From Pseudophaeomoniella oleicola (Eukaryota > Ascomycota > Eurotiomycetes > Phaeomoniellales > Phaeomoniellaceae), in the NCBI GenBank assembly GCA_003868215.1, contig QWDQ01000057.1:62001-126000 (forward strand): a stretch of 64,000 nt of DNA. Reading direction: 5' to 3'. Below are positions 3,789 to 64,000 of the stretch, piece after piece. A program made the position numbers and the translations under genes. Under the pieces are notes generated by a model. That model was given only the letters and a program-made list of their open reading frames with translations. It searched no databases and had not been told where the DNA came from. Positions within the stretch are counted from its first letter, which is position 1, and each line of letters starts with the position of its first letter.

Positions 3789-5623
3789 TAGCAGTCCCAT
3801 TCGTCGGGCCAAGAGCAAGTGGTTTGTAATGAGGTGGTTCTTTCATAGACTGTTGGCACTTCCGAAGTATGAGAGAACGTATCGAATAATTAGTCGCATT
3901 GAATTGGTCGTAATCGGCAGTCGCTCCCATGTGGTTGCCGATCGTTCTAAATGGAGCTCTGGCCCTTGTACTATGAATCTGTCCAAGAGGTTTGCGTTGT
4001 TGCATCTCGTTGCATTCTGCCGAACCTCGCTTATGCCAGGCAGAGCGGTATCACGACGCATGTCTCCGTGTTTCAAACACATGGAGGCTATTAAAAGTGG
4101 TCCCGATCTGTAGGGTGTACTTGCTATGGGAGATGGGTGCTTTTCTTACCCTTACCTACCTGAGGTACCTAGGTAGGGGTGGAGAGTCGATCGATGAAAG
4201 GATAGTTGATATCTTTTCTTCGCATTCCAACTTAACTTCCTGCTGGAGTGGTATTACCCGATTGGGAAATATGATGAATCGGACCAATCAAAAGTGCCGG
4301 GTGGTGACCTCGTATAGTAGCGTCGAACTAATTGATCCGAAGTGTGGATCTCACTCACGTACGTGTCCGCGTCTCCGTTACCCGGCAGACCATCGTGGCA
4401 TTCGTTCCTTTCCTCTCCTTCTCCTTCTCCTTCCCCTGCCTTGTCCTTGTCCTTTCTTTCACTATCGACATTTGTAGATAACCTCCCGAGCTCTAATGAC
4501 TCGACTACCACTTCGCCTATTTGCATTTGCATGTCCCAAGAGTCACACTACCTCACCAAAACCCGAGTCCATGACCATACTCCACCTCGTCGACCCAGGT
4601 TAGCAAGCATTTGCCCATGCAAGATCTGTCTCTCGGACTATGCTTCAAGTAAGCCGCGAGCATACAATTTCCCCTTTTGGGGTAACAGTGGTTCTATAGA
4701 GTTTAGTGATGGGTCAATATAGGTCATCACCCTCACACCATCTCCTCTTGGTCACCGCCAGGAGATCCGGAGGTATCCCGCCGTCCCTGCATGTCTGGAG
4801 AGGCGTGAACCACTTAGAAGACATGCCGACATCTTTTGCCACAAGTCGGCGGCGGTCAGGACATATATGAACGTGCCCACTGCCTGAGTCTACTGTAACG
4901 CTCAATTCCAGCAGATGACTATTCACAGGATCCCGGCTGAGATATCAGTACCAACCAAAACCACTACCCGCCTTCTTTCTCCAGAGAAAGCACGCCTCAT
5001 TCTAAGGCTGCTTGGAAATCAACTGGGAAGACTTTGGGCCGTGGGTTGTGGCCCCATCTCTAGTTCCGTAGGGCTGGAAACCTTGCTCGCTACGAAGAAT
5101 ACATTACATTCCCCGGAGGCTCAAATTGATTGGCTTTCGTACTTAGGACCATATACTTAACCCCGAATCTCCCAACTCGCCCACGCACACCCTTAGTCAC
5201 CAGAGAAAGGCAGTGGTTGCTGATATCGTCGATCGAGTGGACTCGTACAGTGCTGCACTACCATCAATTGCTGACTTGCAGCTTGTATGCGATTTTTGGG
5301 TTGTTCAACTTCGATCCCGCCACCCTGCGAGAGGGCCACATTTAGGCTTATTCATTCGTCTAAAACAGCGTGGCATGCGTCAGCGAATCTATCATGAAAC
5401 GACCCAGTTCGAAATGTATCCCTCTTCAGCTGCTTCTCTCCTGACATCTGTAATCTCTGAATAGGGTGTTACTACTCCGAGACGCTCCGCAGATCTATAT
5501 ATTACTCTTACATCTCTGCTAGCATTCCAGATCGTTGACCTTTTCCCCTGTCTTGTCCTACGAGTTGTCCCAACCCGTCCAGTCTCAAGCACGACCAAGA
5601 CAACTGTGTCACTGTTCCCCAAG
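3789..5623. other. Intergenic region between MFS exporter and Zn2Cys6 regulator
   Basis: No supported gene in about 1.8 kb. It contains a CCTAGGTA-type palindromic patch at about 4154-4176 and a pyrimidine-rich CTT/CCT stretch near 4405-4460. Open frames of 60-160 codons on both strands lack family resemblance and overlap one another. The 3' half probably serves as promoter and leader of the transcription factor. Confidence 0.5.
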
Positions 5624-7984
5624 ATGCACTCCTTAGCAGAAGACTTGGAACAGCAGGGTCACGTCCCAATGCTACAGGGGTTCTTGGACGTGACTGTCCA
5701 ACCTCCCGGTCAGAGCGCTGACTCCTTACTGTCATCAGCAGAACTGGACGTTCCAGCCCTACCTAGGCAATCACACCCATCGAGCCGTGCATTCCTACAA
5801 CCCACCCCGAACCATGATCAAAGACAGGAATCTCCCGAGTCAAATGGCGACAAGTTGCGAATGCAACGTCGGAGGCATCCCAAAGTCCGCACAGGGTGTG
5901 TGGTATGCAAGAAGCGGAGAATCAAGTGCGATGAAACCAAACCGAAATGTCTACGATGTACTAGATCTGGGTGGGATTGTGAAGGCTACAATCTTCCCAA
6001 GACTTGGCTCTTCGAGCCAGGTAAGCCTGCCTCGCAGCCGCAGCAGGACGAATCAGACCATCAGAGTGCATCGGGAACCTCTGAATCTGGCAGTCCAGTG
6101 GACTGGCAAGGACTATCCAATCAGCTTAGCAACACAGAAGATGCGATCCGTCGCTCAATGTTCTCTCTAGCATCCTTTCACGAAATCGTCTTGAGCGTCG
6201 TTGGTCAATCCACTCTTGATCTAGGAGCGCATGCTTCAGTCCGAAACGCTGCTTTGGAGCAGTGCGCTGCGGCTATAGACATTCTTACATCCACATCTTA
6301 CCCTCACAAGGATGCCATCCTCCGCGCCTGTTCACGTCTAATCTCTTTCGAGAGATTTCACACAAACTACGACCCGGCAATCGCACGGTTTTGCCATGCC
6401 ACCGTAGCTCCACGTCATGACAGCAAGACTCTGATGGATGATCGACTTGCCATGGAGCTACTTGAGACAGCATACGACGAATCCGATACTCATCTAAACT
6501 CGACATCAAGTTCAGTGGCTCCAATACCGTCTTTGCAAACGTTTTCGACAATACAAGAGGCGGACTGGCTACTGCGGCGTACCTTCAAACGTATCACTAC
6601 TCTCATATTGAGCGATCGTGTCACCAAACAACGCATACTATCTCTCCAGGACTACCTATCCAACTGGCTCGCGAAATTCGACGAGGTTTGCCTCCTGCAC
6701 TACTACGATGTCCATCTACATCGCATGGGCTTAATCTCACGAACCAAGTACCTCCTCACGAAAATCATCATTGGCACAGCCACGGAGGATACGGAGTCGG
6801 TTTACGATAATTTTATACCTGAATATGAAGCCATGGTCAACATATGCTGGATCATCTACAATTGCGACAAAAAGGCGCCGATGGACACTCAGGTTCATTC
6901 GGCATTGCTTTTCGTTGCAGCTACATGTCGTCAGCCTTCTATCCGTCTCAGCGCAATGGAGTTGCTTGGCTCCTTTCTTCAAGTTGCTAGCATTGGCCTG
7001 CCAACCGGGGCGACGGGGTATATAGTTTGCGAAAGCATCATATGCATGGAAGCGCGTTCTTGTCCTGGTCCGATCCACAACGCCAGCGACATCCCAGAGA
7101 TGTGCCGAATCCGTGTTGCGAAGACGACGGAATTTCTTGAAAGCGGAAAGATCATGTTGCGGTACTCACACCATCCGTACAGCGAGAATGGCCTTCTCGA
7201 ATGTGAAGAGTTGCACTCTCCGGTCTTTACAGGCAATCACACGCAATCTACCGAGTACGATTCCATTTCGATGGAGCTCGATGGCCCAAGTGCTCTAACA
7301 GATCCTAGGTATCCGTCCACATCCGGAGAAGACTTCGACAGCATGGCCACTCTGATGGACTCAACGGTCACTTATCCCGTAAATGACGGGGGCATTTCAA
7401 CAACCGACGCCGCCAACATCGCGACCAATCCTTTCACTTTCCCCTTATTCATCCAGCCAGAAATGGACTCGACTCAACTCGAAAACATTCACGCTTTGTC
7501 CTCTTCCGCCGCAACAATCGATACGCGGTCGCCAGCTCTAGCTCCACCAGTGACCACCTCTCCCTCCTCTTCCCTCTCCGCCACCACCACCACCAGCCCC
7601 CGTCCAGCATCAACTCGCACAGACACCACCACCAACCACCGCACCATCCTCTCCCGAACCACTTCCAGCAGCAGCAGCAGCAGCGCCGCCAGAAACAAGA
7701 TTTCCACGCCGCGCATCGCTCAAGGTTCGAGAGCGAACACCCGTTCAAGAACGACCGCGATGTCGACGCCACATGACAACGCAGCCGGCAAGACAGCAGT
7801 CATGACTACGAGTACGACATCATCACCACGTCCACCGTCATCATCTCGCTCTTCTCCCTCTCCCTCGTCTTCGTCCTCTTCTTCTTCTTCCTCGTCTCCT
7901 CCTCCCCCTCCATCATCATCATCAACATCAGACATCCGAAAAGCTCCGAGATCGAGAACGATACTTCCATTCCCGTTCGGCTAA
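5624..7984 (+). CDS. Zn(II)2Cys6 binuclear-cluster transcription factor
   Basis: A single open frame of 786 residues from the first in-frame ATG. The zinc cluster lies at residues 92-119 with Cys92, 95, 102, 109, 112 and 119 (C-x2-C-x6-C-x6-C-x2-C-x6-C), preceded by basic MQRRRHPKVRTG. Such clusters bind CGG-type half sites in nuclear DNA. The middle (about 160-480) is helical and resembles the regulatory domain of fungal C6 factors (PEYEAMVNICWIIY region). The C-terminal 200 residues are extremely Ser/Thr/Pro-rich with a Ser homopolymer encoded by TCN repeats. A GTAAGC at about 6020 just after the cluster resembles a donor, but the frame stays open and sensible through it, so I keep it as coding. 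Its targets are unknown; the efflux pump upstream is one candidate. Confidence 0.88.
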   Translation: MHSLAEDLEQQGHVPMLQGFLDVTVQPPGQSADSLLSSAELDVPALPRQSHPSSRAFLQPTPNHDQRQESPESNGDKLRMQRRRHPKVRTGCVVCKKRRIKCDETKPKCLRCTRSGWDCEGYNLPKTWLFEPGKPASQPQQDESDHQSASGTSESGSPVDWQGLSNQLSNTEDAIRRSMFSLASFHEIVLSVVGQSTLDLGAHASVRNAALEQCAAAIDILTSTSYPHKDAILRACSRLISFERFHTNYDPAIARFCHATVAPRHDSKTLMDDRLAMELLETAYDESDTHLNSTSSSVAPIPSLQTFSTIQEADWLLRRTFKRITTLILSDRVTKQRILSLQDYLSNWLAKFDEVCLLHYYDVHLHRMGLISRTKYLLTKIIIGTATEDTESVYDNFIPEYEAMVNICWIIYNCDKKAPMDTQVHSALLFVAATCRQPSIRLSAMELLGSFLQVASIGLPTGATGYIVCESIICMEARSCPGPIHNASDIPEMCRIRVAKTTEFLESGKIMLRYSHHPYSENGLLECEELHSPVFTGNHTQSTEYDSISMELDGPSALTDPRYPSTSGEDFDSMATLMDSTVTYPVNDGGISTTDAANIATNPFTFPLFIQPEMDSTQLENIHALSSSAATIDTRSPALAPPVTTSPSSSLSATTTTSPRPASTRTDTTTNHRTILSRTTSSSSSSSAARNKISTPRIAQGSRANTRSRTTAMSTPHDNAAGKTAVMTTSTTSSPRPPSSSRSSPSPSSSSSSSSSSSPPPPPSSSSTSDIRKAPRSRTILPFPFG

Positions 7985-13187: not shown

Positions 13188-14824
13188 TCAATATCCCCTT
13201 CGATCGAGAGGTGCATGCGAGAGACCACCGTTGGCTCGCTTGTACTCTAGCATCCCAGGGAAAGAACTGTATGGTTCATCGTAGTTTTGCTCAGCAGATG
13301 GCCTCATTCCGCTCTTCAAAGGATGGTGACTGAATCTCGGTGGACTGTAAGTCCTTTTACCTGTTGCTTGGAGGGCGTCTTGACGGGTGTCAGCATCTCT
13401 GATGAGATCGCTCACAGGAGGAAGCATCGGCTGTTCAGGCGCTATGGTCACCTTGTTCCCCGAGGATGTGTAAGAGTAATGGGCCGCCGGATAAGCTGGA
13501 GCCTGTTGGGTTCGGTAGCTACTTGGATCCGACACAACGTAAGCCGAAGGGTCCGATGGACGACGATAGCTAGACGGTTCAGTTGGACGTGGTGGGTAGC
13601 TAGTGACGTCGGAAGGACGGCGGCTTCCAGCGTCCGAGTTAGAATAGGTCGAAGCATCACTTCCTCGATGCTCATAAGGCCTATACGGAGCCGGTTTCGA
13701 TGTGTAATCCTGAAGTCTACTTGATGGTGCTGGACCAGAGGGGGATGGAAGCGAAGGGTAATGATGCTGTGGGTATGCGGACGAAGGCGGCATTGCCGAG
13801 CTCGGCGTTGTAGGGACAGCAAAGCTGGAGCTGGATGGACCCAATGAAATCGGAGGCTGTTGGGGACGTCCATACATATCACCACTGTGAACGGACAAGC
13901 GACGCTCCCCGTATTGACTTCCGTCGTGGCTGCCATGGCTGAGGGACCTTGGACGATCATGTGGCATCGGCATTCCTTCAGGCGTGGTATATCTGCCTCG
14001 CATAGCATCATCGCCGTAAGGTTCGTTCATCAGCTTTGGCTTCGGCCTCTTCCTCATCCTCACATCTCTCCTGATACGAACACGACAACCTTGATCTGAC
14101 AGACCGATACTTAGACCTGTACTTCTGTCAAGGCCTGGAAATTTCTTTGCGCTGAAAACCTGGAATTCCTCTGATCTCACTTCCAACCTCGAGACGGAAG
14201 AATTGTGCATCTGTGGAGGCCGTTGTCCCTCCTTCTCAAGTGACTTGTCCAATCCGGCTGGAGGAAACGGTCGCTCTGGGTCCGCATCTCGCCAATCCTT
14301 GACTTGCTCATACAAAGCAAAGGTCAGACGATAGAAACCTTCATGGCGAACAGAAAGATCCGGAAAGATGAAGTATCCTGCTGGCGCTGGTCGCTCGAGG
14401 TAATTGATACCAGCGACATTGCAACCGTTTAGCACAGCCATTGACGGTGGTCCTGGAGCGCCAACTCGTCCGGCGGCGATCGGTCTGGCTTCCAGAGTCG
14501 CAAATAGAAAGAAGTTCACATTGTGATAAGATATTGTGATGTCCTTGAGGTTGTTGTCGTCTTCTCCTTCAAATACACGAAGCTCGACTACAGGTGGTGG
14601 ATCGACTGGACGACGATCGGCAGATGCTACAAACTGTCAGTCTATACTCGAAGCAACAATCCGATCTTAATACCTTTGGCCCCGTTCCCACATGCTCTCG
14701 CTCTTTCTGGTTGCTGCAACACATGCAGTTGATATGTCAATCGACGATTATCCACGGTTCGTCGTATCGTCTTCGCCGTAGTAATGTTGGTGGCATTCGA
14801 CCACAAGCTTATTTTGTCCATCAT
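13188..14824 (-). CDS. veA: Velvet-domain global regulator VeA
   Basis: Two exons, 14674-14824 and 13188-14626, separated by a 47-nt intron, give 529 residues. The velvet fold is clear: LTYQLHVLQQPERARACGNG (start of the domain), DRRPVDPPPVVELRVFEG across the splice, then YFIFPDLSVRHEGFYRL and FQVFSAKKFPGL. The GCRVRIRRDVRMRKRPKPK stretch is the basic region typical of VeA. The C-terminal half is Pro/Ser/Tyr-rich and disordered, as in the family. VeA works with VelB and LaeA in the nucleus to link light to development and secondary metabolism. The start is the first of two adjacent in-frame ATGs; upstream of it the frame stays open but has no ATG. The N-terminal 20 residues look unlike other VeA proteins, so a different first exon is possible. 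Confidence 0.93.
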
Positions 14825-23884: not shown

Positions 23885-25104
23885 CGCGTCGAAAAAGAGG
23901 TTTCATGGGAAGAAAATGTTTCAACGCATTGGGAGTAGGGGGACATGTCGGCTGGCTATCTGCTCGGTATTCGGTTCGTTTCGGAGGAGCAACTCCCCTT
24001 GATGCAGCCTTCTCCCAAAGAAGCATTGTCTGGCTGTGGTTCTCAGCTTGACGGAAGGGACCTGTGTAATCATGAGAGGATCGAAGACGATTGGTGGGAC
24101 AAGGGTGAAACGAGGAACGAAACATGAAACTTGGTCATGAGTACTCTATGTTGTACATATGTTACATAAGTGATGTGGACCAAAAAGCTAAGCTATCCTG
24201 AAGAGGAGAATTGCATGAATTCTGGCCTGCTCTAATTATATTCTCGTTGTTGCAGTTTACAGGAATGTCTTGCATCTCAACATTCTCATCTCTAAATCAG
24301 AGATGCCCTTTGCTGTTGTGTGCCTGTGAAGTTTCTAGAATCTCTTAATCACTATCATGACATGTTTCAAACCGAGTGGACAAAGGGCGGCGTCTTTGCT
24401 TCGGTTATTCGTTTCAAGTAAATGTCGCTTGGCAACTAACCCACCAGACCGTCTCCTCTCATCTCCTGCCTTTGCTCTCCAACTCTTCATTTCCATGACA
24501 AACAAATCCAAAATGCTCGATCCTTTGGCCGTTTCCAGTCAAAAGGGATCTCGGTAACCCTCTACCGCAATCTATTCCATGATATAAGGTCCACCGCTGC
24601 AACGACCGTAAGCGCTGGCCCAATATGCCAGGAGTATCACGACAACATTAGCTCCACCGCTTCAATCTATCCTCGACTTCGAAGTGCTTCCGGACTTTGT
24701 GTCAATGCACTGACCTCGAGCTATGCTTGATGACTTTATGCTACCACCCGCATAGACTGCCTTGCACTGTAATCTCGCCCAGTCCTCTGGAGAAACATGG
24801 CCTATGCAATACGGATACGACGGCTCTGGTCAACATGAAACATCGTCTACGATGCCACGAAGGCTACAAGTATATAAACATTCTTTCCCTCTTCTTTCGC
24901 TGCTTTCTCTGTTCTGCATCCATTCAAGCATTGTCTTCTGTACTCTCTACTCATTCATTCGTTTTCAGTCTATTCAGACTATACATTCTTTTCGAGTCTT
25001 CATTGATTGAAGCTGGTCTCACTCTTTTTCACCACCACCACCACACAGCCTTTTAAATTTCAAGTCTCTGCAAACAACAACACAATTTATCAACATATCT
25101 CACA
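23885..25104. other. Intergenic region upstream of the AA9 LPMO
   Basis: About 1.2 kb with no supported gene. The first part is the eIF2D 3' flank. The last 230 bases hold a TATA-like box and a CT-rich leader, fitting a strongly transcribed secreted-enzyme gene. Confidence 0.55.
24871..24878 (+). promoter_or_regulatory. TATA-like box of the LPMO gene
   Basis: TATATAAA lies 234 bp upstream of the LPMO ATG and is followed by a pyrimidine-rich tract typical of fungal transcription starts. The assignment is by position and sequence only. Confidence 0.5.
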
Positions 25105-26340
25105 ATGTCGATGTCAAAGCTTGCTTTCATTGGCGCTCTTGCCAACCTCGCTTCATTTGTTCCTCAAGTTGCAGCTCACGGTTACGTTTCGGGCATTGTT
25201 GTTGACGGCACTTACTACAACGGTTACCTTGTCAACCAGTACCCCTACGAGAACCCCCCTCCAGCTGTGATCGGGTGGACTGAAACCGCTACCGACTTGG
25301 GTTACGTCTCGGACTACACATCCCCTGATATTATCTGCCATAAATCTGCCACCAATGGAAAAGCCTCCGCAACGGTTGCTGCTGGAAAGGACGTCACCTT
25401 CGAATGGACCACCTGGCCTTCATCCCACCACGGCCCTGTGATCAGCTACCTGGCCTCCTGCGGCGCCGATTGTACGACGGTTGATAAGACGTCCTTGGAG
25501 TTTGTGAAGTTCGATGCTGCAGGATTGATCAGCGACTCCGCCAACCCAGGTACATGGGCCTCCGACCAACTGATTGCAAACAACAACAGCTGGACCGTGA
25601 CGATCCCAGCTACCATCAAGCCAGGAAACTATGTCCTCCGTCACGAGATCATCGCTCTGCACAGCGCTGGGAACCAAAATGGTGCCCAAAACTACCCACA
25701 ATGTATCAACCTTGAGATCACTGGCGGTGGCTCGGACGCTCCAGCTGGTACCGCGGGCGAGAAGCTCTACACTGCCACTGACCCCGGTATCTTGGTCAAC
25801 ATCTACCAGACCCTGAGCAGCTATGCTATTCCAGGTCCTGCTATCCCAGCGGCTTTCGCTTCCGGATCCAGCGGCAGCGGTTCCAACCCAGCCCCCTCAT
25901 CCGCTGTCGCTACAAGCGCTGCCCCTGTTGCAACCTCTGCCTCCACCTCAGCCGTCGCTTCTAGCGCAAGTTCCGTTGCAGTCTCATCTGCCGCCTCCGT
26001 TGCACCAACCTCCATTGCTTCAGTCACTCCTGCTTCCAGCCAAGCTCTTGCTGTCACTCCTACCACAACTGCTGTCGCCGTTACTGCAACCGCTCCTGCA
26101 CTTGCATCATCGGTTGCTTCTGCTCTCTCCAGCTTGGCCACTGGACTCCCATCGTCAATTGCTACCGCTCCCGCTCCAACTGCCACTGCCACCACCAGCA
26201 GCGGTCAGACTGTCTCGACTGCCGGGTTGACTGTCTCTCAGCTCATGGATCTTCTCAAGCAGATCCTCCTCCAGCTCTTCAATTCTTCCACCAACAGCAC
26301 CAAGGCACGCCGTCACGCTCGTGACCTCATGGCAGCATAG
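25105..26340 (+). CDS. AA9 lytic polysaccharide monooxygenase with long Ser/Ala tail
   Basis: Intronless, 411 residues. A signal peptide of about 24 residues ends QVAA, so His25 (HGYVSG) becomes the N-terminal histidine of the copper brace. The second copper ligand is His108 in SSHHGPV. The axial tyrosine is Tyr197 in NYPQC, with His186 and Gln195 in the usual second-sphere places. The family is secreted and cleaves cellulose or related glucans oxidatively. The catalytic domain ends near 245. The tail (about 255-375) is Ser/Ala/Thr/Pro-rich and probably O-glycosylated. It is followed by [18 protein letters not shown], an amphipathic helix, and a basic end ([12 protein letters not shown]). There is no CBM1 and no hydrophobic GPI signal at the very end. 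Confidence 0.95.
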
Positions 26341-29983: not shown

Positions 29984-31725
29984 ATGACAAGTCCCAAATC
30001 AGCGGCCTCTGCGGTTAAAGGTCTCCCATCACCCGCGCAGAGTTCTGGTTCTATGACAGCAGGTGTCAAGCGCAAGAGACCGACAGAAACCAAATTCTAT
30101 GGTGTTAGAGAAGGGAGGAAACCAGGCGTCTACGCTTCATGGGCCGAGTGTTTAGAACAAGTGAAGGGGCACAAGAATGCACTGTGTACGGTTTGAAGCA
30201 TTCATTTCGTGAGTCCACGCTAACATGGGCCACCTCTGCAGTTCAAGCTTTCCCTACGCTCTCAGCAGCAGAAGCATTCGTGGCCGGACAGTCTCCAGAT
30301 AGTGCCAACGGTTCCTCGGGCGCGAGGTCATATCAACCGACGAAATTCTATGGTGTGCAGGTGGGAAGAGTACCCGGTGTTTATACAGACTGGCCTAGCG
30401 CACAAGCTCAGATAGTAGGATGGAAGAATCCAAAGCACAGGAAATTCGACAACCGAGCAGCAGCAGAAGCTTTCGTTACGGCCGGAAGGATACCAAACGG
30501 CACGACGAGATTATATGGCATAACTAATGGAGAAAAGACGCTTAAAGGAGGTGAGGGATTGGTCGAGGGTGAACAAGACGGTGCTTTGGATGGGCCGGGA
30601 GCTTGGCCACTACCGCCGGGTGCTGAAGACGGGTTCGATCCAAATGTCAAGTTGGGGGAGGATGAGAAGCTTCGGTACCGGACTCTCGAAGAGAAAAAGA
30701 GGCGCAAGATCGTCCCGACGAGCTCCAATTCGAGACCTGGTTCGTTACTCAAAATTTACACAGATGGCTCTAGCTTGAACAATGGGCAAGGAGGTGCGGT
30801 TGGGGGTGTAGGTGTATACTTCGGTCCGGGTCATAAGAGGTAAGTTTGACGGCACCATTCGACGTCTAATTCTACAGCGTCAAGGCAACTGTTCTACCGC
30901 AGTCACTAACATGCTAGCAGTAATGTCTCTGAGCCTCTCCCTGGCCCTCGTCAAACCAACCAACGTGCAGAGCTCTCCGCTCTGCTTCGTGCTCTCGAGG
31001 TGGCTCCTCTTCATCGTCCCGTGGAGATATATACCGATTCTCGCTACGCCATTGGATGCATAACACAGTGGTACGACAATTGGGTCCGAAAGGGGTGGGT
31101 CACGTCCAAGGGCCACAAGGTCGAAAACAAGGATTTGATTGTTGATATCAAGACAATGGTCGATGAACGAAAGGAAGGATACAACGTAGACACCACCTTC
31201 GTCTGGGTAAAAGGACACGGAAACACAGAAGGCAACGTCATGGCAGACAAACTCGCCGTCCAAGGAGCTCACGGCGGCAACCCAAACAGCGGTGCGAAAT
31301 GGGAAGAAACCGACGACGAAGAATACGGAGCAAAAGACGACCAATCAATATCCAAAGAAGACGAAGAAGAAGTAGCAGCCGACGTCGACGGCAACATCAA
31401 CATGAAAGACAACGCCAAAGCCAAAGCCCATATCAAACCCTCCACCAACGGCGGCAAGAACCAAGATGAAGCCACTGAAGAAGACGACGACGATGATGAT
31501 GACGACGAAGAACAGTTCGAACCCTCCGCTTCCCTAACAACTCACATGGCCACCCTTGCCGACGAAGCCGCCACCGCCCAGACCCGAACCATGATGCAAT
31601 CCGGTGGCCATGAAACGCGCGTTGTTGATGATGATGACAAAGATGCCATCGACGGAGAAGAAGACGACGACGATGATGCGTTGCTGCATCCGGCTGTTCG
31701 AGAAGATGGAGAGGAAGATGTTTGA
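29984..31725 (+). CDS. RNH1: Ribonuclease H1 with two hybrid-binding (viroplasmin-like) domains
   Basis: Three exons (29984-30185, 30242-30839, 30921-31725) give 534 residues. Two hybrid-binding domains lie near 35-82 (KFYGVREGRKPGVYASW) and 100-147 (KFYGVQVGRVPGVYTDW). The RNase H fold starts at about 236 (LLKIYTDGSS). The catalytic residues Asp242, Glu284 (TNQRAEL), Asp306 (YTDSRYAI) and Asp376 (GNVMADKLA) are all present. The enzyme removes RNA from RNA:DNA hybrids in nucleus or mitochondria. The tail (about 395-534) is strongly acidic with Asp runs. The first intron uses GTACGG as donor and has a good branch site (GCTAAC); a later GTGAGT would add a stop. The second acceptor could be one codon earlier. 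Confidence 0.9.
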
Positions 31726-32244: not shown

Positions 32245-33475
32245 TCATCGCAAGCTTCGTCCAGAGCCGACGCTTTTTCCCTTCTTGTCTTTGGGATTGA
32301 TATCAGCGTCACTGCTGACACCGCTTTGTGTTCCGCTGCCTGTCCCGTCGCCCTTCTTCTTGGCTCTCAACGTCTGACCGGCGCCTTGGAAACGTGGTTT
32401 CGATTCTTCAGCCGGGATTACTTCGCCCGTATCAGGGTCCTTTTTCTGCACGGGTTTGATCTGGTAGCCGAAGAAGAGCTTTCCGGGAGGTAGTCGAAGA
32501 GGTTGAGGTCCATTTGTACGGCGTGCTGGAGGTGGTTTGGGAGCATTACTCGAGCTTCCTGCTACAGGGGTTGTAGCTTGTGGAGTTGGTGCTTTTGATC
32601 CTTTCTTGGATGACAGTTTTTGTCCTCCAGTAAGAAAGTGACTTGATACAGCCTTCGCTCCAGCAGCTGCCGAGGTCGCTGATGGGGCTATTGCACCATA
32701 ATTAATAGAATCTGCCATCGTACCCTGGAAATGAAGATGACCACCGACACGTGTAACACCTGGAGCACCGCTTCTTGGTGTGCTCGTCCCAGAGGGCACT
32801 CTCTGCGGCTCTTCATAACCAACCGGAGTAGCGAAGTCAACTTCCAAGTCTGTTTCCATGACCACAATTGCTTTCTTGTCCGTATCAGGCTTCACCTCAA
32901 GCACTGCCATTTCGTAAACCTGATCATTATACGCGAAAGTGAAGACATCTCCCACACTCAAACAAGCGAAGTTCCGGAAAGCATTTTCGAGGACAGCTCG
33001 AGGATCGGAGATATCTAGGAATGCTGGTGATTGCGGTTGAAGCTTAATGAAAGCTCCTGGTGGTAGGTCGGTTGATTTGATCTGAAGGAGATCACCTGGT
33101 TCTAACAGAAGCGTTTGCATGAGCTGGAGACTTGTCAGCGCAATCGACAGATGTAAAGTTGCAGCACCGTACCCAGTATGGGAGATAGATTTTGCCCTCT
33201 TCTGCGATGAACTCCACTACACCAGCGTGGGTCATCTTTTCCTCTTTACCATTATGTAGCTCGAATAGCATAGGGTACGTGATGTGTAACCGAGTGAGCT
33301 TGTCTAGGGCACTTGGTGGCATTATGACTCGACCTCCATGATTGACATTCTCCCTCTCTGGCCCAGGCAGCATGGCAACTGGGTAACATCTGTAGTATTC
33401 ATCGAATCGTCGCATGGACATTCCTACTGGTGGTCGTCGAGGAAACCCCGGAAACATGCCCATAGACATGTCCAT
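32245..33475 (-). CDS. UFD1: Ufd1, ubiquitin-recognition subunit of the Cdc48 complex
   Basis: Two exons (33173-33475, 32245-33123) with a 49-nt intron give 393 residues. FDEYYRCYPVAMLPGPEREN, then PPSALDKLTRLHITYPMLFEL, HAGVVEFIAEEGKIYLPYW and, across the splice, LMQTLLLEPGD are the Ufd1 double-psi barrel. Ufd1 with Npl4 brings ubiquitylated clients to the Cdc48/p97 ATPase for extraction from membranes or complexes and delivery to the proteasome. The C-terminal third is Pro/Ser/Lys-rich, as usual. An ATG at 33544-33546 with a donor directly behind it could splice to 33493 and add the residues MAFYDND to the front; I give the simpler start here and describe the alternative in the findings. 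Confidence 0.94.
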
Positions 33476-35507: not shown

Positions 35508-37011
<1,504 letters not shown>

Positions 37012-40977: not shown

Positions 40978-42660
40978 TTAATTCCACTCCTCAGGAATGA
41001 CTTGCCGGGCCAACTCGCTAACGTTGCTGTAATCGATCTTCACGTCGACGATGCTGACTCCCTTGTACGCCAAGGCCTCTTTCATGACCTGCTCGAGCTC
41101 GCTCGAATCGCTGACGCGGAAAGGTTTCGCGCCGAAGGCTTCGGCAAACTTGACGAAGTCGACGCCGCCGAGCTGCACGCCCGAGCTGCGGCCGTATTTC
41201 ATCTCCTCCTGGAATTCGACCATATTGTAGGCCTCGTCGTTCCAGATGAAGTGCGTGATGTTGCAGCCCTGCTGAACGGCGGTGCTGAGCTCCATGGATG
41301 AGAACATGAAGCCGCCGTCGCCGCTCAGGGAGACCACCTTCTCGGAACATGGGGGAGATTGAATGAGCGATGCTGCGATGGCCCAGGGGAGACCGACGCC
41401 AAGGGTCTGTTGTCCGTTAGAGCAGAGGAGCTTGCGAGGTTGGTATGCGAAGAAGAAACGCATTAGCCAGATGTAGACGGTGCCGACGTCGCTGATGACA
41501 GTGGTCTCATGTGAAACGTATTGTTGCAGGAGGGAGATGAAATGTAAGGGATGGACAAGGCCCGAGTCGCGGCGGGTCTCCTTGCGTTTCTGCCAGGAGA
41601 TGAATTCTTCGGAGAGCTTCTTGCAAAAGTCGGATTCAGTAGGGTCAGCCATGGTATGGATTTCATCGGTGAGATAGTTTAGATTCTCGACTATGGAGCC
41701 GAGAAGTTCGATGTTGGGTTTGTAATGTTCTCCGTAGTCGCAGGAGGTGTAGTCCATGTGAACGACGTTGAGCTTACCGTCTGGATTCCATGAATTGGCG
41801 TCATACTCAGTCGGGTCGTAACCTACGGTAAGGATAAGGTCGGATTTGGCGAGGAGACGGTCACCGGTCTGATTGCTGAACAGACCGACACGTCCGTAGA
41901 ACAAATGGCGGAGTTCATATGAAACTGCTCCAGCTGCTTGGAAGGTTTCGACAACCGGGATGGGATATTTCTCGAGCAATCTGCGAGTCGCAGGGACGAC
42001 TTTGTTGCTGGAAGCTCGCATTCCGAGGAAGAGAACGGGAAGTTTCGCCTGCTGGATGCTGCGCGCCACCTCTTGAAGGAGTGGTCTGGGTGCCGGTCCG
42101 AAACGGGGAGCTGCAAATGCAGAAGGGGCAAAGGCTGTTATCTTGGACTGGCCTGCTGCGACGTCCTGGGGTATCGAGACGACGGCAGATCCTTTGGGAG
42201 AAATTGTAGCAGCTCGGAATGCTGCAACCATGACTTCCGCTGCTTGGTCTTCCACATCAATGTTGGTAGCAGTCTTCGCTGTTGGAGACAGGATCTCTAA
42301 AGCTTTCATAGACTGGTGCGTACGCTTGGTACTCATGGGTCGGGGAACAGAGCCGATGATTGCGACGACTGGGTCGCCCTCCGTGGTTGCTGTGACCAAG
42401 CCCGTAGTCAAGTTCCCTGCGCCGGGGCCTGAGGTAGCTATGCAAACACCAGGGATGCCCGTGATTCTTCCAACAGCAGCTGCCATCATGGCTGCATTCT
42501 GTTCATGTCGGCACACTATGAGTTTGATATCTGGATGGTCTTCGAGAGTATCGAAGATTGCGTCGACTTTGGCTCCAGGAATGCCAAAGGCGACCCGGAC
42601 GCCAGCATTGTACAAGCTTTCGACAACAATCTTAGCGACGCTCTGCTCTTGCGATGACAT
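40978..42660 (-). CDS. alsS: Acetolactate synthase, catabolic (AlsS/BudB) type
   Basis: Intronless, 560 residues, starting at the first in-frame ATG. It is a thiamine-diphosphate enzyme with the usual three domains: N-terminal pyrimidine-binding (FGIPGAKVDAIFDTLED; catalytic Glu53 in CRHEQNAAMMA), a central domain, and C-terminal diphosphate-binding (GDG at 447-449, Asn474 in FIWNDEAYNM). TSGPGAGNLTTGL, ANTEGDPVV-like ATTEGDPVV, VETFQAAGAVS, RVGLFSNQTGDRLL and YDPTEYD match bacterial catabolic acetolactate synthase, not the mitochondrial Ilv2 enzyme. The catabolic type condenses two pyruvates to acetolactate without FAD or a regulatory subunit. No mitochondrial presequence is evident. The acetolactate decarboxylase gene is its divergent neighbour. 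Bacterial origin is likely but untested. Confidence 0.92.
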   Translation of the reverse strand: MSSQEQSVAKIVVESLYNAGVRVAFGIPGAKVDAIFDTLEDHPDIKLIVCRHEQNAAMMAAAVGRITGIPGVCIATSGPGAGNLTTGLVTATTEGDPVVAIIGSVPRPMSTKRTHQSMKALEILSPTAKTATNIDVEDQAAEVMVAAFRAATISPKGSAVVSIPQDVAAGQSKITAFAPSAFAAPRFGPAPRPLLQEVARSIQQAKLPVLFLGMRASSNKVVPATRRLLEKYPIPVVETFQAAGAVSYELRHLFYGRVGLFSNQTGDRLLAKSDLILTVGYDPTEYDANSWNPDGKLNVVHMDYTSCDYGEHYKPNIELLGSIVENLNYLTDEIHTMADPTESDFCKKLSEEFISWQKRKETRRDSGLVHPLHFISLLQQYVSHETTVISDVGTVYIWLMRFFFAYQPRKLLCSNGQQTLGVGLPWAIAASLIQSPPCSEKVVSLSGDGGFMFSSMELSTAVQQGCNITHFIWNDEAYNMVEFQEEMKYGRSSGVQLGGVDFVKFAEAFGAKPFRVSDSSELEQVMKEALAYKGVSIVDVKIDYSNVSELARQVIPEEWN

Positions 42661-43526
42661 GTTTTGATGAGTTGGATGCGATGCTACACTGATGGGAATG
42701 ATTGAGGGACACAATCCGGGGTAGATGTGCTAGAATAGAAGAGCTATGAACCGTTACACAGCACAAAACTTGAGTTCTTGCCTCGCGGACCTGGTTGGTA
42801 TGATATTATGTCAGCAGAATGCAGATGCCCTCGTCGCCGTCCTTGGTAGACAAGGCGAAACAGATGATGGGCTTGCAGCTGTTTATAGAGACATTACAGA
42901 GCCACGACCATGAAAACATTTTTTTTTCGTTAGGCTGCACCTATTTCGCTTCTCTAGATGGGACATAGTACAAGAATTATGGCATCGTCGGAGCCGTATC
43001 GTCGAAGTCTTTCTGCGTCCGTCCAATAATGATGTCAGTATCGAATGGGGCATCTCCATTGACCCAAAATTGTTCGGATTGAGTCGGGATGATGGAGCCT
43101 TTGGGGTATCAAATTTCTGAACATCGGATGGCGTACAGTCGGCCCGACAGCTTTCTATCATGAATACTTGACTACTACGATAGAGAGTAAACCTCGCCAA
43201 CTGCGCAATCGGACACTTGTACCACTAATAGAACCATCTCTACCTATGGTTTAGCGGTGTACAGAGATAAGCTTGTTGGCAGAGATCCTCACCGCATACA
43301 CTCGGCCAAGTGCCCGGAGCCCACTTGGTAGGCAGCAGTTCCATAGAATCTCATCAATCCGACGTGGATGAAGTCCGAGCTGACTAAGACCTAAGGTGTC
43401 GAGAGGACTTATATCTGACAGCGGAAATATCGATAAAGTCTTGTTTGTACACGAGAACATACCGACTTAATCACATAGCCAAGACGATTGATTGCATTGG
43501 TCTATTGCTGCAACTGACCTATCAAA
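42661..43526. promoter_or_regulatory. Shared divergent promoter of the acetoin gene pair
   Basis: An 866-bp space between the start codons of acetolactate synthase (minus) and acetolactate decarboxylase (plus). No gene inside is convincing. A CCGGGG at 42716-42721 matches the fungal carbon-repressor consensus SYGGRG, and CGGAGCCG near 42988 resembles an inverted CGG pair, as bound by zinc-cluster factors; single matches like these arise often by chance. The arrangement suggests joint control of the two genes. Confidence 0.55.
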
Positions 43527-44231
43527 ATGGAGGATAATCAAATCTATTCGTACTCGCTCCTGAACGCCTTGATGGATGGCGTCTGTGAGATGGGAATCCC
43601 TGTTAAAAAGTTTCTTGAGAAAGGGAACCAAGGCCTGGGTACATTCGTCCGGATGAACGGTGAACTGCTCTCCTTGGATGGTGTCGTCTACCAATTGATG
43701 GCCGAGGGAAAAATTCGCGTTGCAGATCCAGAGGATCAGATTCCATACGGCATGTGCACGAACTTCGTCCCCCAGATCACAAAGGAAGTTGCCTTGGAGG
43801 ATAAAACAGCAATAGACCGGGAGTTAGATGCCTTCAACAACCAGTCAGCTAATCTCTTTATGACATACCGAATGACTGGCCGCTTCAAGATGGTCAAAGC
43901 CAGAACGGTACGAGGACAGGAGTACAAGGGGCAAAAACTCTCGGAGCTCGGAAAGAAGCAGCATGTCGCTACATACAATGACATCGAAGGGACCGTAGTT
44001 GGGTTCCGGTCGCCGAACTCCTGGCAGGGGTTCTCAGTTGCCGGGCAACATCTTCATTTTATTGACAAGGATCTGAAGATCGGAGGTCATGTATTGGAGA
44101 TTGAAGCGGATAAGGTGACGATGAGCATGGCAGTGGTATCAAACGTCCATGTTGAGCTCCCAACCTCAGAGGAGTTCAACTCGGCAAGTCTGCTCATGGA
44201 CGATCAGGGCATCCAAGCCGTTGAGGGATAA
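43527..44231 (+). CDS. alsD: Alpha-acetolactate decarboxylase (AlsD/BudA family)
   Basis: Intronless, 234 residues, close to the bacterial length without a secretion signal. The start ATG lies in an AAA-ATGG context. NGELLSLDGVVYQL carries Glu46, matching the metal-site glutamate of the family. The zinc ligands are His175 and His177 (GQHLHFID) and His188 (GGHVLEIE); their spacing is that of the Bacillus brevis enzyme. Arg161 in GFRSP matches its active-site arginine. The enzyme decarboxylates (S)-acetolactate to (R)-acetoin in the cytosol. It lies head to head with a catabolic acetolactate synthase, so the pair would form a complete pyruvate-to-acetoin route. No acetoin reductase or butanediol dehydrogenase gene is seen in the window. 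Confidence 0.94.
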   Translation: MEDNQIYSYSLLNALMDGVCEMGIPVKKFLEKGNQGLGTFVRMNGELLSLDGVVYQLMAEGKIRVADPEDQIPYGMCTNFVPQITKEVALEDKTAIDRELDAFNNQSANLFMTYRMTGRFKMVKARTVRGQEYKGQKLSELGKKQHVATYNDIEGTVVGFRSPNSWQGFSVAGQHLHFIDKDLKIGGHVLEIEADKVTMSMAVVSNVHVELPTSEEFNSASLLMDDQGIQAVEG

Positions 44232-46024: not shown

Positions 46025-47075
46025 ATGGGCTCTACACAGTTCGGCAATTTTCACGTGAGTGAGGAGCGGAGAGGCGCTGTCGCATTAATACTGATGCTTA
46101 TACTTGCTAGAACTTCTGTCGAGATACGACCCTACCAGTTTGTAATGTACGAAGCATGTTTCTCTTGAGATGGGACGACCAGACTAACAGGCGCAGCTCT
46201 TCGTCCGTAATAACCAACCACCAAATGCCGACTATGGTGGTTGTGCCCTGACAGGGATTCATCTGAGTGGACATAGATATTTGGGGAATCTCGGTAAGAA
46301 CGCAGTCTGTTCATGGACGTGCCTTTGCTGACTGGTGATAGGTTCCATACTGTTCTGTGGACTCGCCATAATTGCCGCCATATTTCTTTTGTTGAGATCA
46401 GAACGAAAGGCTGCAGCGGTTGGGCGACGGGAAATGCAGATATTCCTGATCGGCTACATTGTGATTTCGATATGCGAGATCTTTACTGTCGGCGCGTTCC
46501 CTCTTGACCCAATAGTGCGTAAGGGATTTACAGCAGCGCATTTGGCCGCCATTACGGCGACAACATGGATACTCTTGCTCAATGCCTTTGTGGGTTATCA
46601 GTTAATCGACGATGGCACGCCAATGTCCATGCTTTTGATAGTCGGTTCTGCGCTTGCCCTGTTCGTTGGTACGGGCTACATCGCTCTCGACACGGCATTT
46701 TCATGGACAGGTCACTTTGATGGCTCGTTGGGCGGACAAAATCGGAATATCGGGCTCTATGTGTTATATCTCCTCGCACCGCTCGTTTTTCTCTTTCTTT
46801 TCGTCATCCTCGAAACTGTCCTGGTCATCCGGGTCCTCGGTGAAAGGAAGCCAATGCTCTATCTCCTTGCAGCGGTGCTCCTGTTCGCAATCGGCCAAAT
46901 TTTCGACTTCGTCATCTCCACGCACATATGCCAGGGGGTTAATGGAAAGATCAACGGCGCAATGTTCGAGACACTGTTCACGCTGCTATCTGTGGTGGTG
47001 ATATGGGTGTTCTGGAGCAGCATAACGGAGGATGACTGGCCCATGCCTGTGGCAGGAGGACCTGCATATGCTTAA
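46025..47075 (+). CDS. CHS7: Chs7, ER export chaperone of chitin synthase
   Basis: Four exons (46025-46054, 46111-46146, 46197-46293, 46342-47075) give 298 residues. The first two coding exons are only 30 and 36 nt. The N-terminus MGSTQFGNFHNFCRDTTLPV, with paired Cys and NADYGGCALTG, then seven hydrophobic segments and the FDFVISTHICQGVNGKING motif, are those of Chs7. The protein sits in the ER membrane and is needed for chitin synthase (Chs3 in yeast) to fold and leave the ER, so it affects cell wall chitin. All junctions are canonical GT-AG with phases that fit the conserved protein. Confidence 0.94.
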
Positions 47076-63126: not shown

Positions 63127-64000
63127 TCAGTCGGGGTCTGGATATTCTTCGGCTGGTCCAGGGCCTTCGTCCATCTCCTGAACAGTCCCAAGACTCTCCT
63201 TCTGTTTTCCCTCGTCCTCGATTTGCTTCAACTTGGCTTGGCCTTCTTCTGTCGTTGCATCGATGACTCCCTCTTCCAGGCTGAGCATACCCCCTTGGCC
63301 AAGCTGCTCCACTACCTCTTCGGCTTCTTCAACGCTCATCTTCCCCAAGACGGTGTTGACCTCGTCCAGACTTGCAGATTCCAAGGCCCTCTGTAGCCCT
63401 GGAGGAAATTTCTCGAATATATCCCTTGCGGCCTGTTCAGTCGGATCGTCACTATTAGCTTGTGGTACGACGATGTGAATTTGGGTGTTCGGGTCAACGG
63501 CATGGAGCTGGATCTGTTCGACGCCGGCGGGGTCGGCTTTCTCGTTATTCAACTCTACAGATCGAGCCTTGATACGACCGTATGTACTATTGACATCGTC
63601 CATGAAGACCTTGCTCGCCTGGTGGTCCTTTGTTGTGATGCGTTTGAAGAACAAGCCTGTTCCATCGCGACCGAGCGAGCGACAGTATTGTAGTAGAAGA
63701 CCATGATGTACACAAGTGCGAGCATATGTTTCTTTCCCTTCCATCTGTGCGTTGAAGGCTTCAACAAGCAAGCCGTCCGTCTCACGTTCTGCTACGACTT
63801 CCGGGTGCTCAGAGATGAACTGCAACAAGGCGCGATAGTCGCCCATTCTGATCTTTGCAAATCGTCTCCCCAGTGGTGATATCTTGGCGTCTGAATCCTC
63901 GGGTTCATTTGATATGTCGTCTTCAACATCTGCTTCAGCTCCTGAAGAGATGGCGGAATCTGAACGAGGGAGTGAATCTCGTTTTACTGCGCCTGGATTG
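63127..64000 (-). CDS. CDC37: Cdc37 Hsp90 co-chaperone, C-terminal part (5' end outside window)
   Basis: The open frame runs from the window's right edge to a stop at 63127, giving the last 290 residues. SPLGRRFAKIRMGDYRALLQ, then FISEHPEVVAERETDGLLVE, AFNAQMEGKETYA and HHGLLLQYCRSLGRDGTGLF are diagnostic of the Cdc37 Hsp90-binding domain. Cdc37 loads protein kinases on Hsp90 in the cytosol. The N-terminal kinase-binding domain lies beyond 64000. The C-terminus ends in an acidic tail (MDEGPGPAEEYPDPD). An ATG at 63846 is internal and not the start, because the conserved motif extends upstream of it. Confidence 0.95.
   Translation of the reverse strand, partial: NPGAVKRDSLPRSDSAISSGAEADVEDDISNEPEDSDAKISPLGRRFAKIRMGDYRALLQFISEHPEVVAERETDGLLVEAFNAQMEGKETYARTCVHHGLLLQYCRSLGRDGTGLFFKRITTKDHQASKVFMDDVNSTYGRIKARSVELNNEKADPAGVEQIQLHAVDPNTQIHIVVPQANSDDPTEQAARDIFEKFPPGLQRALESASLDEVNTVLGKMSVEEAEEVVEQLGQGGMLSLEEGVIDATTEEGQAKLKQIEDEGKQKESLGTVQEMDEGPGPAEEYPDPD

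Follow-up and report, generated by a model that had tools for sequence, protein, structure and literature searches.

Two adjacent genes for a bacterial-type acetoin pathway in the fungus Pseudophaeomoniella oleicola and their probable bacterial ancestry

A 64,000-nucleotide stretch of the genome of the ascomycete Pseudophaeomoniella oleicola (contig QWDQ01000057.1, positions 62,001 to 126,000), referred to here as the window, carries two adjacent genes, one for an acetolactate synthase (ALS) of the catabolic, AlsS/BudB type and the other for an alpha-acetolactate decarboxylase (ALDC) of the AlsD/BudA type. Together they very probably constitute a bacterial-type two-enzyme acetoin pathway that is long established in Pezizomycotina and whose genes most likely came from bacteria. 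ALS would join two molecules of pyruvate into 2-acetolactate with the help of thiamine diphosphate (ThDP), and ALDC, its metal held by three histidines, would decarboxylate this intermediate to acetoin. ALS would be a cytosolic enzyme that uses pyruvate, separate from Ilv2, the acetohydroxyacid synthase (AHAS) of valine and isoleucine synthesis. The entry of both genes from bacteria would predate the split of the sampled Pezizomycotina lineages, unless the genes also spread later from fungus to fungus. The enzyme activities of both proteins are predicted from sequence.

The two genes lie head to head. Between their start codons, which point in opposite directions, are 866 bp presumed to hold the promoters of both. 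Each is a complete, intronless frame, just as a preliminary description of the window had it. That description relied on a list of open reading frames in which ALS opens at a TTG (42714). The frame is indeed open, but this start is not needed, because an in-frame ATG at 42660 yields a protein of 560 amino acids, the median length of the homologues (best 120 of 7992 matches; 110 of the 120 span 558 to 566 amino acids). The ATG also coincides with the invariant first column of an alignment of 12 fungal rows and is most likely where the protein begins. ALDC, at 234 amino acids, has the median length of its own homologues as well (best 120 of 1119 matches; 104 of the 120 have 234 or 235 amino acids).

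What kind of ALS is this? It holds the three ThDP-enzyme domains (Pfam) and passes two NCBIfam equivalog models, NF006378 at 717.7 bits (cut-off 510) and TIGR02418 at 675.4 bits (cut-off 551.1), which bears out its assignment as an AlsS. Its nearest solved structures by sequence are also catabolic ALS, an ancestral one (9zgl, 609.9 bits) and natural ones such as 4rjj (500.9 bits). Catabolic ALS, by definition, makes acetolactate from pyruvate without flavin adenine dinucleotide or a regulatory subunit. Fungal mitochondrial AHAS (Ilv2) also makes acetolactate from pyruvate, and one might ask whether the gene is simply an ordinary Ilv2 paralogue that has moved beside a decarboxylase. The two proteins do share the ThDP superfamily, and ALS scores weakly on TIGR00118, the model for biosynthetic AHAS. 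This score, however, is 282.9 bits against a cut-off of 538.35, while the genome's own Ilv2, encoded on another contig (C72), reaches 732.9 bits. ALS is 25.3% identical to that Ilv2 versus 38.0 to 48.8% to 22 bacterial catabolic ALS, and the two differ in five active-site columns, including one (484) where the Trp of Ilv-type enzymes is replaced by Gln. Forcing the fungal ALS together with the genome's own Ilv2 costs 282.9 log units and is rejected by the approximately unbiased (AU) test (p-AU 2.2e-39), so that ALS does not fall among the fungal Ilv2-like enzymes. Tree and residues together refute the paralogue explanation, to which we assign next to no probability: ALS is of bacterial type and not an Ilv2 derivative.

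The residues behind this distinction were read from an alignment of 120 fungal homologues, 22 bacterial catabolic rows, and 11 Ilv-type rows, where "Ilv-type" is our own label for rows of low identity and is backed by a model for the genome's own Ilv2 only. L029 and L052-L057 were excluded, being distant from AlsS without clearly belonging to the Ilv type. Two of the ThDP residues that had been proposed, Glu53 and Asp448 of the GDG motif, are invariant throughout (120/120, 22/22, and 11/11). A third, Asn474, fares less well, being Asn in just 5 of the 22 bacterial catabolic rows. The next position is Asp in every fungal (120/120) and bacterial catabolic (22/22) row and Asn in the Ilv-type rows (11/11). 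Because Asp475 is conserved in the catabolic rows and Asn474 is variable, Asp475 is the likelier metal-site residue. More broadly, columns 31, 115, 418, 475, and 484 read K, H, Q, D, and Q in 120/120 fungal rows and, respectively, in 21, 21, 22, 22, and 22 of the 22 bacterial catabolic rows; the Ilv-type rows have A/V/S, F, G, N, and W (11/11). In AHAS, a Trp at the position matching column 484 favors 2-ketobutyrate, and its absence here therefore fits a pyruvate-using enzyme. The ALS sequence also begins at the enzyme core. A long mitochondrial leader would not fit in front of it, and the active-site set is the catabolic one, so ALS is probably cytosolic and would use pyruvate.

ALDC matches PF03306 (AAL_decarboxy) at 253.1 bits (cut-off 25) and passes TIGR01252 (191.6 bits; cut-off 180.65), and its nearest solved structures by sequence are 6inb (E 3.5e-37), 6j92, and 4bt2. 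It is the sole match to its family in the genome (26.1 Mb in 112 contigs); the same search was positive in 3 of 14 control genomes. His175, His177, and His188, which we take to bind the metal, and Glu46, presumably an active-site residue, are invariant in 120/120 fungal and 32/32 bacterial rows, the latter representing 28 distinct loci plus four second copies of a locus fetched twice. Arg161, listed alongside them in the preliminary description, is invariant in the fungal rows and Arg in just 20 of the 32 bacterial ones.

How, then, did a fungus come to carry such a pair? ALS groups with bacterial AlsS. A first ALS tree of 77 rows included 35 of the 121 fungal ALS and 8 Ilv-type rows. In a second, of 58 rows, eight Actinomycetota and Desulfobacterota rows were added, the fungi were cut to 19 and the Bacilli from 18 to 9, and a divergent row (G234) and one Ilv-type row (leaving 7) were dropped; the weak matches L053-L057 are in no tree. 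All 35 fungal rows of the first tree form one clade (support 100/100) on the bacterial catabolic side, and in both trees the fungal and bacterial AlsS split from the Ilv-type rows at 100/100. In the second tree eight Actinomycetota rows form the sister group of the fungal clade (98/93), a link that stood at 96/57 before all of the row changes combined. The ALDC tree, built from 35 of 121 fungal and 21 of 23 bacterial rows (L005 and L007 omitted), again has a single fungal clade, whose position close to Kocuria and proteobacterial sequences is not firm (89/85); its stem is long, at 2.34 changes per column. Bacterial ancestry of both genes is the simplest reading of these trees, and the two could have come together.

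Several observations weigh against this reading, or at least against its details. A single clade of the 31 bacterial catabolic rows that leaves the fungi outside costs only 7.0 units and is not rejected (p-AU 0.232). Nor does the AU test reject the fungi joined with the Bacilli (6.3 units, p-AU 0.17) or, in the first ALS tree, a position of the fungi beside all sampled bacterial catabolic ALS (p-AU 0.39). The second ALS tree has a long fungal stem (1.1 changes per column) and several bacterial rows of odd letter make-up, and the ALDC tree, which has no outgroup, has 14 firm inner branches of 53. The fungal proteins are also far from the sampled bacteria, with identities of at most 48.8% for ALS (22 rows) and, for ALDC, at most 38.6% (plasmid records) or 36.4% (genome contigs). 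On the functional side, acetoin production by this fungus is a prediction from its genes. In Penicillium digitatum, whose comparable gene pair is described below, mutants were unchanged in growth and infection, and no acetoin measurement was found in the accessible part of that article (PMC10269557).

The transfer from bacteria that was first proposed thus keeps the backing of one fungal clade per tree and of the rejected Ilv2 grouping, but nesting of the fungi within bacterial AlsS does not follow (p-AU 0.232 for the alternative). Between a placement inside and one beside bacterial AlsS there is no significant choice, and we lean toward the Actinomycetota. A single named bacterial donor is not upheld, as the AU tests are not significant and a tree of concatenated ALS and ALDC (19 bacterial and 18 fungal pairs) is unrooted. 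The bacterial sample also shapes these results. Nearest bacterial relatives may lie beyond the best-120 lists; a query with the ancestral ALS returned, among the best 120 of 7993 matches, Bacilli as the named organisms and no fungus. Bacillota and Pseudomonadota are represented by an uneven sample, taken from plasmid records and a single protein search. A scan of genome contigs for ALDC gave 10 loci, and 9 of the 10 genomes behind them have an ALS match at 0.001, two of these being strong, both in Kocuria. ALS was found in 2 of 296 genomes of the Kocuria phylum at 1e-100 (the centre genome and a divergent one), in 6 of 347 of the Kocuria order (centre genome included), and in 8 of 198 of the Desulfobacterales phylum at 1e-90, with two further genome samples giving 0/6 and 0/9.

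Could the genes instead be an ancient eukaryotic inheritance? Early eukaryotes would then already have had catabolic ALS and ALDC, lineages other than the fungi would have lost them, and no transfer would be needed. The AU tests are compatible with this idea insofar as they allow the fungi to stand beside all sampled bacterial catabolic ALS. Yet the organism-named matches among the best 120 for each protein are all fungi, apart from entries labeled Quercus suber, though no search was aimed at other eukaryotes. The wide occurrence of the genes in bacteria and the many losses that the idea would imply also speak against it. We consider such an inheritance quite unlikely.

If the genes are of bacterial origin, one would like to know how they are arranged in bacteria. 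The alsS-alsD or budB-budA pairs of Bacilli, Enterobacterales, and others encode the same two enzyme families, the curated cut-offs being passed, albeit at the modest identities given above. In 11 bacterial loci with adjacent ALS and ALDC genes, all pairs are on the same strand: those of Ancylobacter, Serratia, Pediococcus, Staphylococcus warneri, Vibrio, and Duffyella, four from the Kocuria order (L046-L049), and one from the Desulfobacterales phylum (L050). L032, L034, L039, and L044 also hold both genes and stand outside this count. The window pair, in contrast, is divergent and is not an operon. Its proposed rearrangement from operon to divergent pair fits the 11 same-strand loci but not bacteria with the genes apart, such as a Listeria plasmid record, with ALS and ALDC about 12 kb apart on opposite strands, and two Kocuria genomes (L007, L011, L017, L018), with alsS and ALDC on one contig about 18.7 kb apart and apparently on opposite strands, a spacing that assumes identical contig numbering in both searches. 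These separated Kocuria genes contrast with the adjacent, same-strand genes of L046-L049 from the same order. L060 (Kocuria order) and L059 (Desulfobacterales phylum) have ALS, with no ALDC found in the 12-kb stretch.

The pair is by no means confined to this fungus. The closest organism-named match for both genes, among the best 120 each, is Phaeomoniella chlamydospora (83% for ALS and 77% for ALDC), and the other organism-named matches in these lists are leotiomycete, dothideomycete, and eurotiomycete fungi, the Quercus suber entries excepted. Many of the homologues are already annotated as catabolic acetolactate synthase or alpha-acetolactate decarboxylase in their source records. The two Quercus suber-labeled entries, from the nr database (P0086 and P0211), match the two proteins at 65% and 71% identity and are probably fungal contamination of a plant assembly.

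The two genes have also been kept together in other fungi. For 26 of 119 ALDC rows, the longest contig is exactly equal in length to that of one of 119 ALS rows, whereas a mean of 0.195 rows is expected after offsetting the lengths by 1 to 1000 bases. Each 90% cluster enters this comparison with its longest contig only, and in one of the pairs (P0026, P0181) the species names differ. Of the shared contigs, seven are shorter than 20 kb, and the smallest two measure 5.3 and 5.8 kb. Consecutive locus tags for ALDC and ALS occur in four species, Hymenoscyphus albidus (HYALB_00011594/5), Cladophialophora chaetospira (H2200_006699/700), Vermiconidia calcicola (LTR37_002620/1), and Friedmanniomyces simplex (B0A55_00527/8), and LTR85_008389 and LTR85_008394 are near each other without being consecutive. 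V. calcicola has two ALS entries, LTR37_013826 and LTR37_002620 (P0162, P0178), of which the latter adjoins the ALDC tag LTR37_002621.

Within the fungi, the ALS tree does not track classes neatly. In the first tree, the window protein and that of Phaeomoniella group with Phialocephala, Hymenoscyphus, and Amylocarpus (100/99), four Chaetothyriales rows stand apart from them, and Lachnellula lies elsewhere; in both trees the window and Phaeomoniella proteins go with Leotiomycetes and not with Chaetothyriales. The lineage of Phaeomoniella (Eurotiomycetes) was checked. The pattern suggests that the genes are old in fungi and that later transfer between fungi, or uneven loss of copies, has overlaid their history. 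Support in the ALDC tree is too low to confirm the branching.

In a fuller scenario, an ancestor of leotiomycetes, dothideomycetes, and eurotiomycetes would have acquired a bacterial operon of two genes in one event, the donor perhaps resembling an actinobacterium. The operon would then have been broken up into divergent genes sharing a promoter region, and the pair would have stayed together as a cytosolic acetoin route separate from Ilv2. Taken whole, this is tentative, and we judge it somewhat more doubtful than probable. One ancient transfer kept linked across three fungal classes would make a clean case of a bacterial operon turned into a eukaryotic gene pair, and it would provide a genetic handle on fungal acetoin. 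Acetoin is a volatile with reported antifungal effects.

Bacterial-type genes lacking introns might, of course, also be bacterial contamination or a mis-assembly. The same contig, however, carries flanking frames for Chs7, TIP49, UFD1, RNase H, and CDC37 (Table 1), conserved eukaryotic or fungal families that therefore argue against contamination. The closest relatives are fungal in name, at up to 77 to 83% identity against the 48.8% or less seen with sampled bacteria, and the GC content at third codon positions, 0.61 to 0.63 in ALS and ALDC versus 0.50 to 0.58 in seven neighboring frames, is slightly raised and not foreign. Contamination is rejected on these grounds, its probability being close to nil.

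Table 1. The acetoin gene pair and other features of the window
Feature	Positions	Strand	Remarks
ALS coding sequence, catabolic type	40978..42660	-	560 amino acids, single open frame
Region between the divergent start codons	42661..43526	.	866 bp, 46.4% GC
ALDC coding sequence	43527..44231	+	234 amino acids, single open frame
Chs7 chitin synthase chaperone match	46332-47072	+	Pfam
TIP49 match	35511-36458	-	Pfam
UFD1 match	32248-33216	-	Pfam
RNase H match	30109-31722	+	Pfam
CDC37 match	63130-63999	-	Pfam
AA9 lytic polysaccharide monooxygenase	25057-26337	+	
Velvet factor	13191-14636	-	
Zn2Cys6 regulator	5465-7981	+	

Is acetoin the end product? It could be carried onward to 2,3-butanediol or other compounds, or ALDC could mainly drain leaked acetolactate. 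Two bacterial loci (L040 and L037) do have an acetoin reductase gene annotated beside budA. An acetoin reductase partner beside the window pair is not upheld, as none of the 20 scanned frames among the 25 other window frames of at least 170 amino acids has a reductase-like Pfam match, and 0 of 17 matches in the genome pass TIGR02415 (best 161.8; cut-off 304.35), although other reductases could serve. An end product other than acetoin is unlikely.

That a fungus can carry a two-gene acetoin cluster is already known, so the phenomenon is not new. In P. digitatum, PDIG_14840 (ALS) and PDIG_14850 (ALD) are neighbors and have been termed an acetoin biosynthetic cluster (PMC10269557, as far as this article is accessible, here and below). 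They resemble the window pair in that a filamentous ascomycete carries the ALS gene next to the ALDC gene, a likeness drawn from the published description and not from sequences, and differ from it in lying within a cluster of five genes responsive to the antifungal protein AfpB. Gene orientation and bacterial origin were not found in the accessible part of the article. Because the pathway is already documented in a fungus, the gain here is evolutionary and not new biochemistry, and the likely bacterial origin is the less explored point: no report of it was found among titles and the beginnings of abstracts, a search that leaves most subscription journals outside and is weak evidence of absence. 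As for expression, mRNA of both P. digitatum genes was detected in conidia, culture, and infected fruit, and the single and double knockouts had a twofold higher minimum inhibitory concentration of AfpB, i.e., were slightly more tolerant (PMC10269557). The ALDC protein of P. digitatum also appears in a proteomics table in the accessible part of a second article (PMC8775614).

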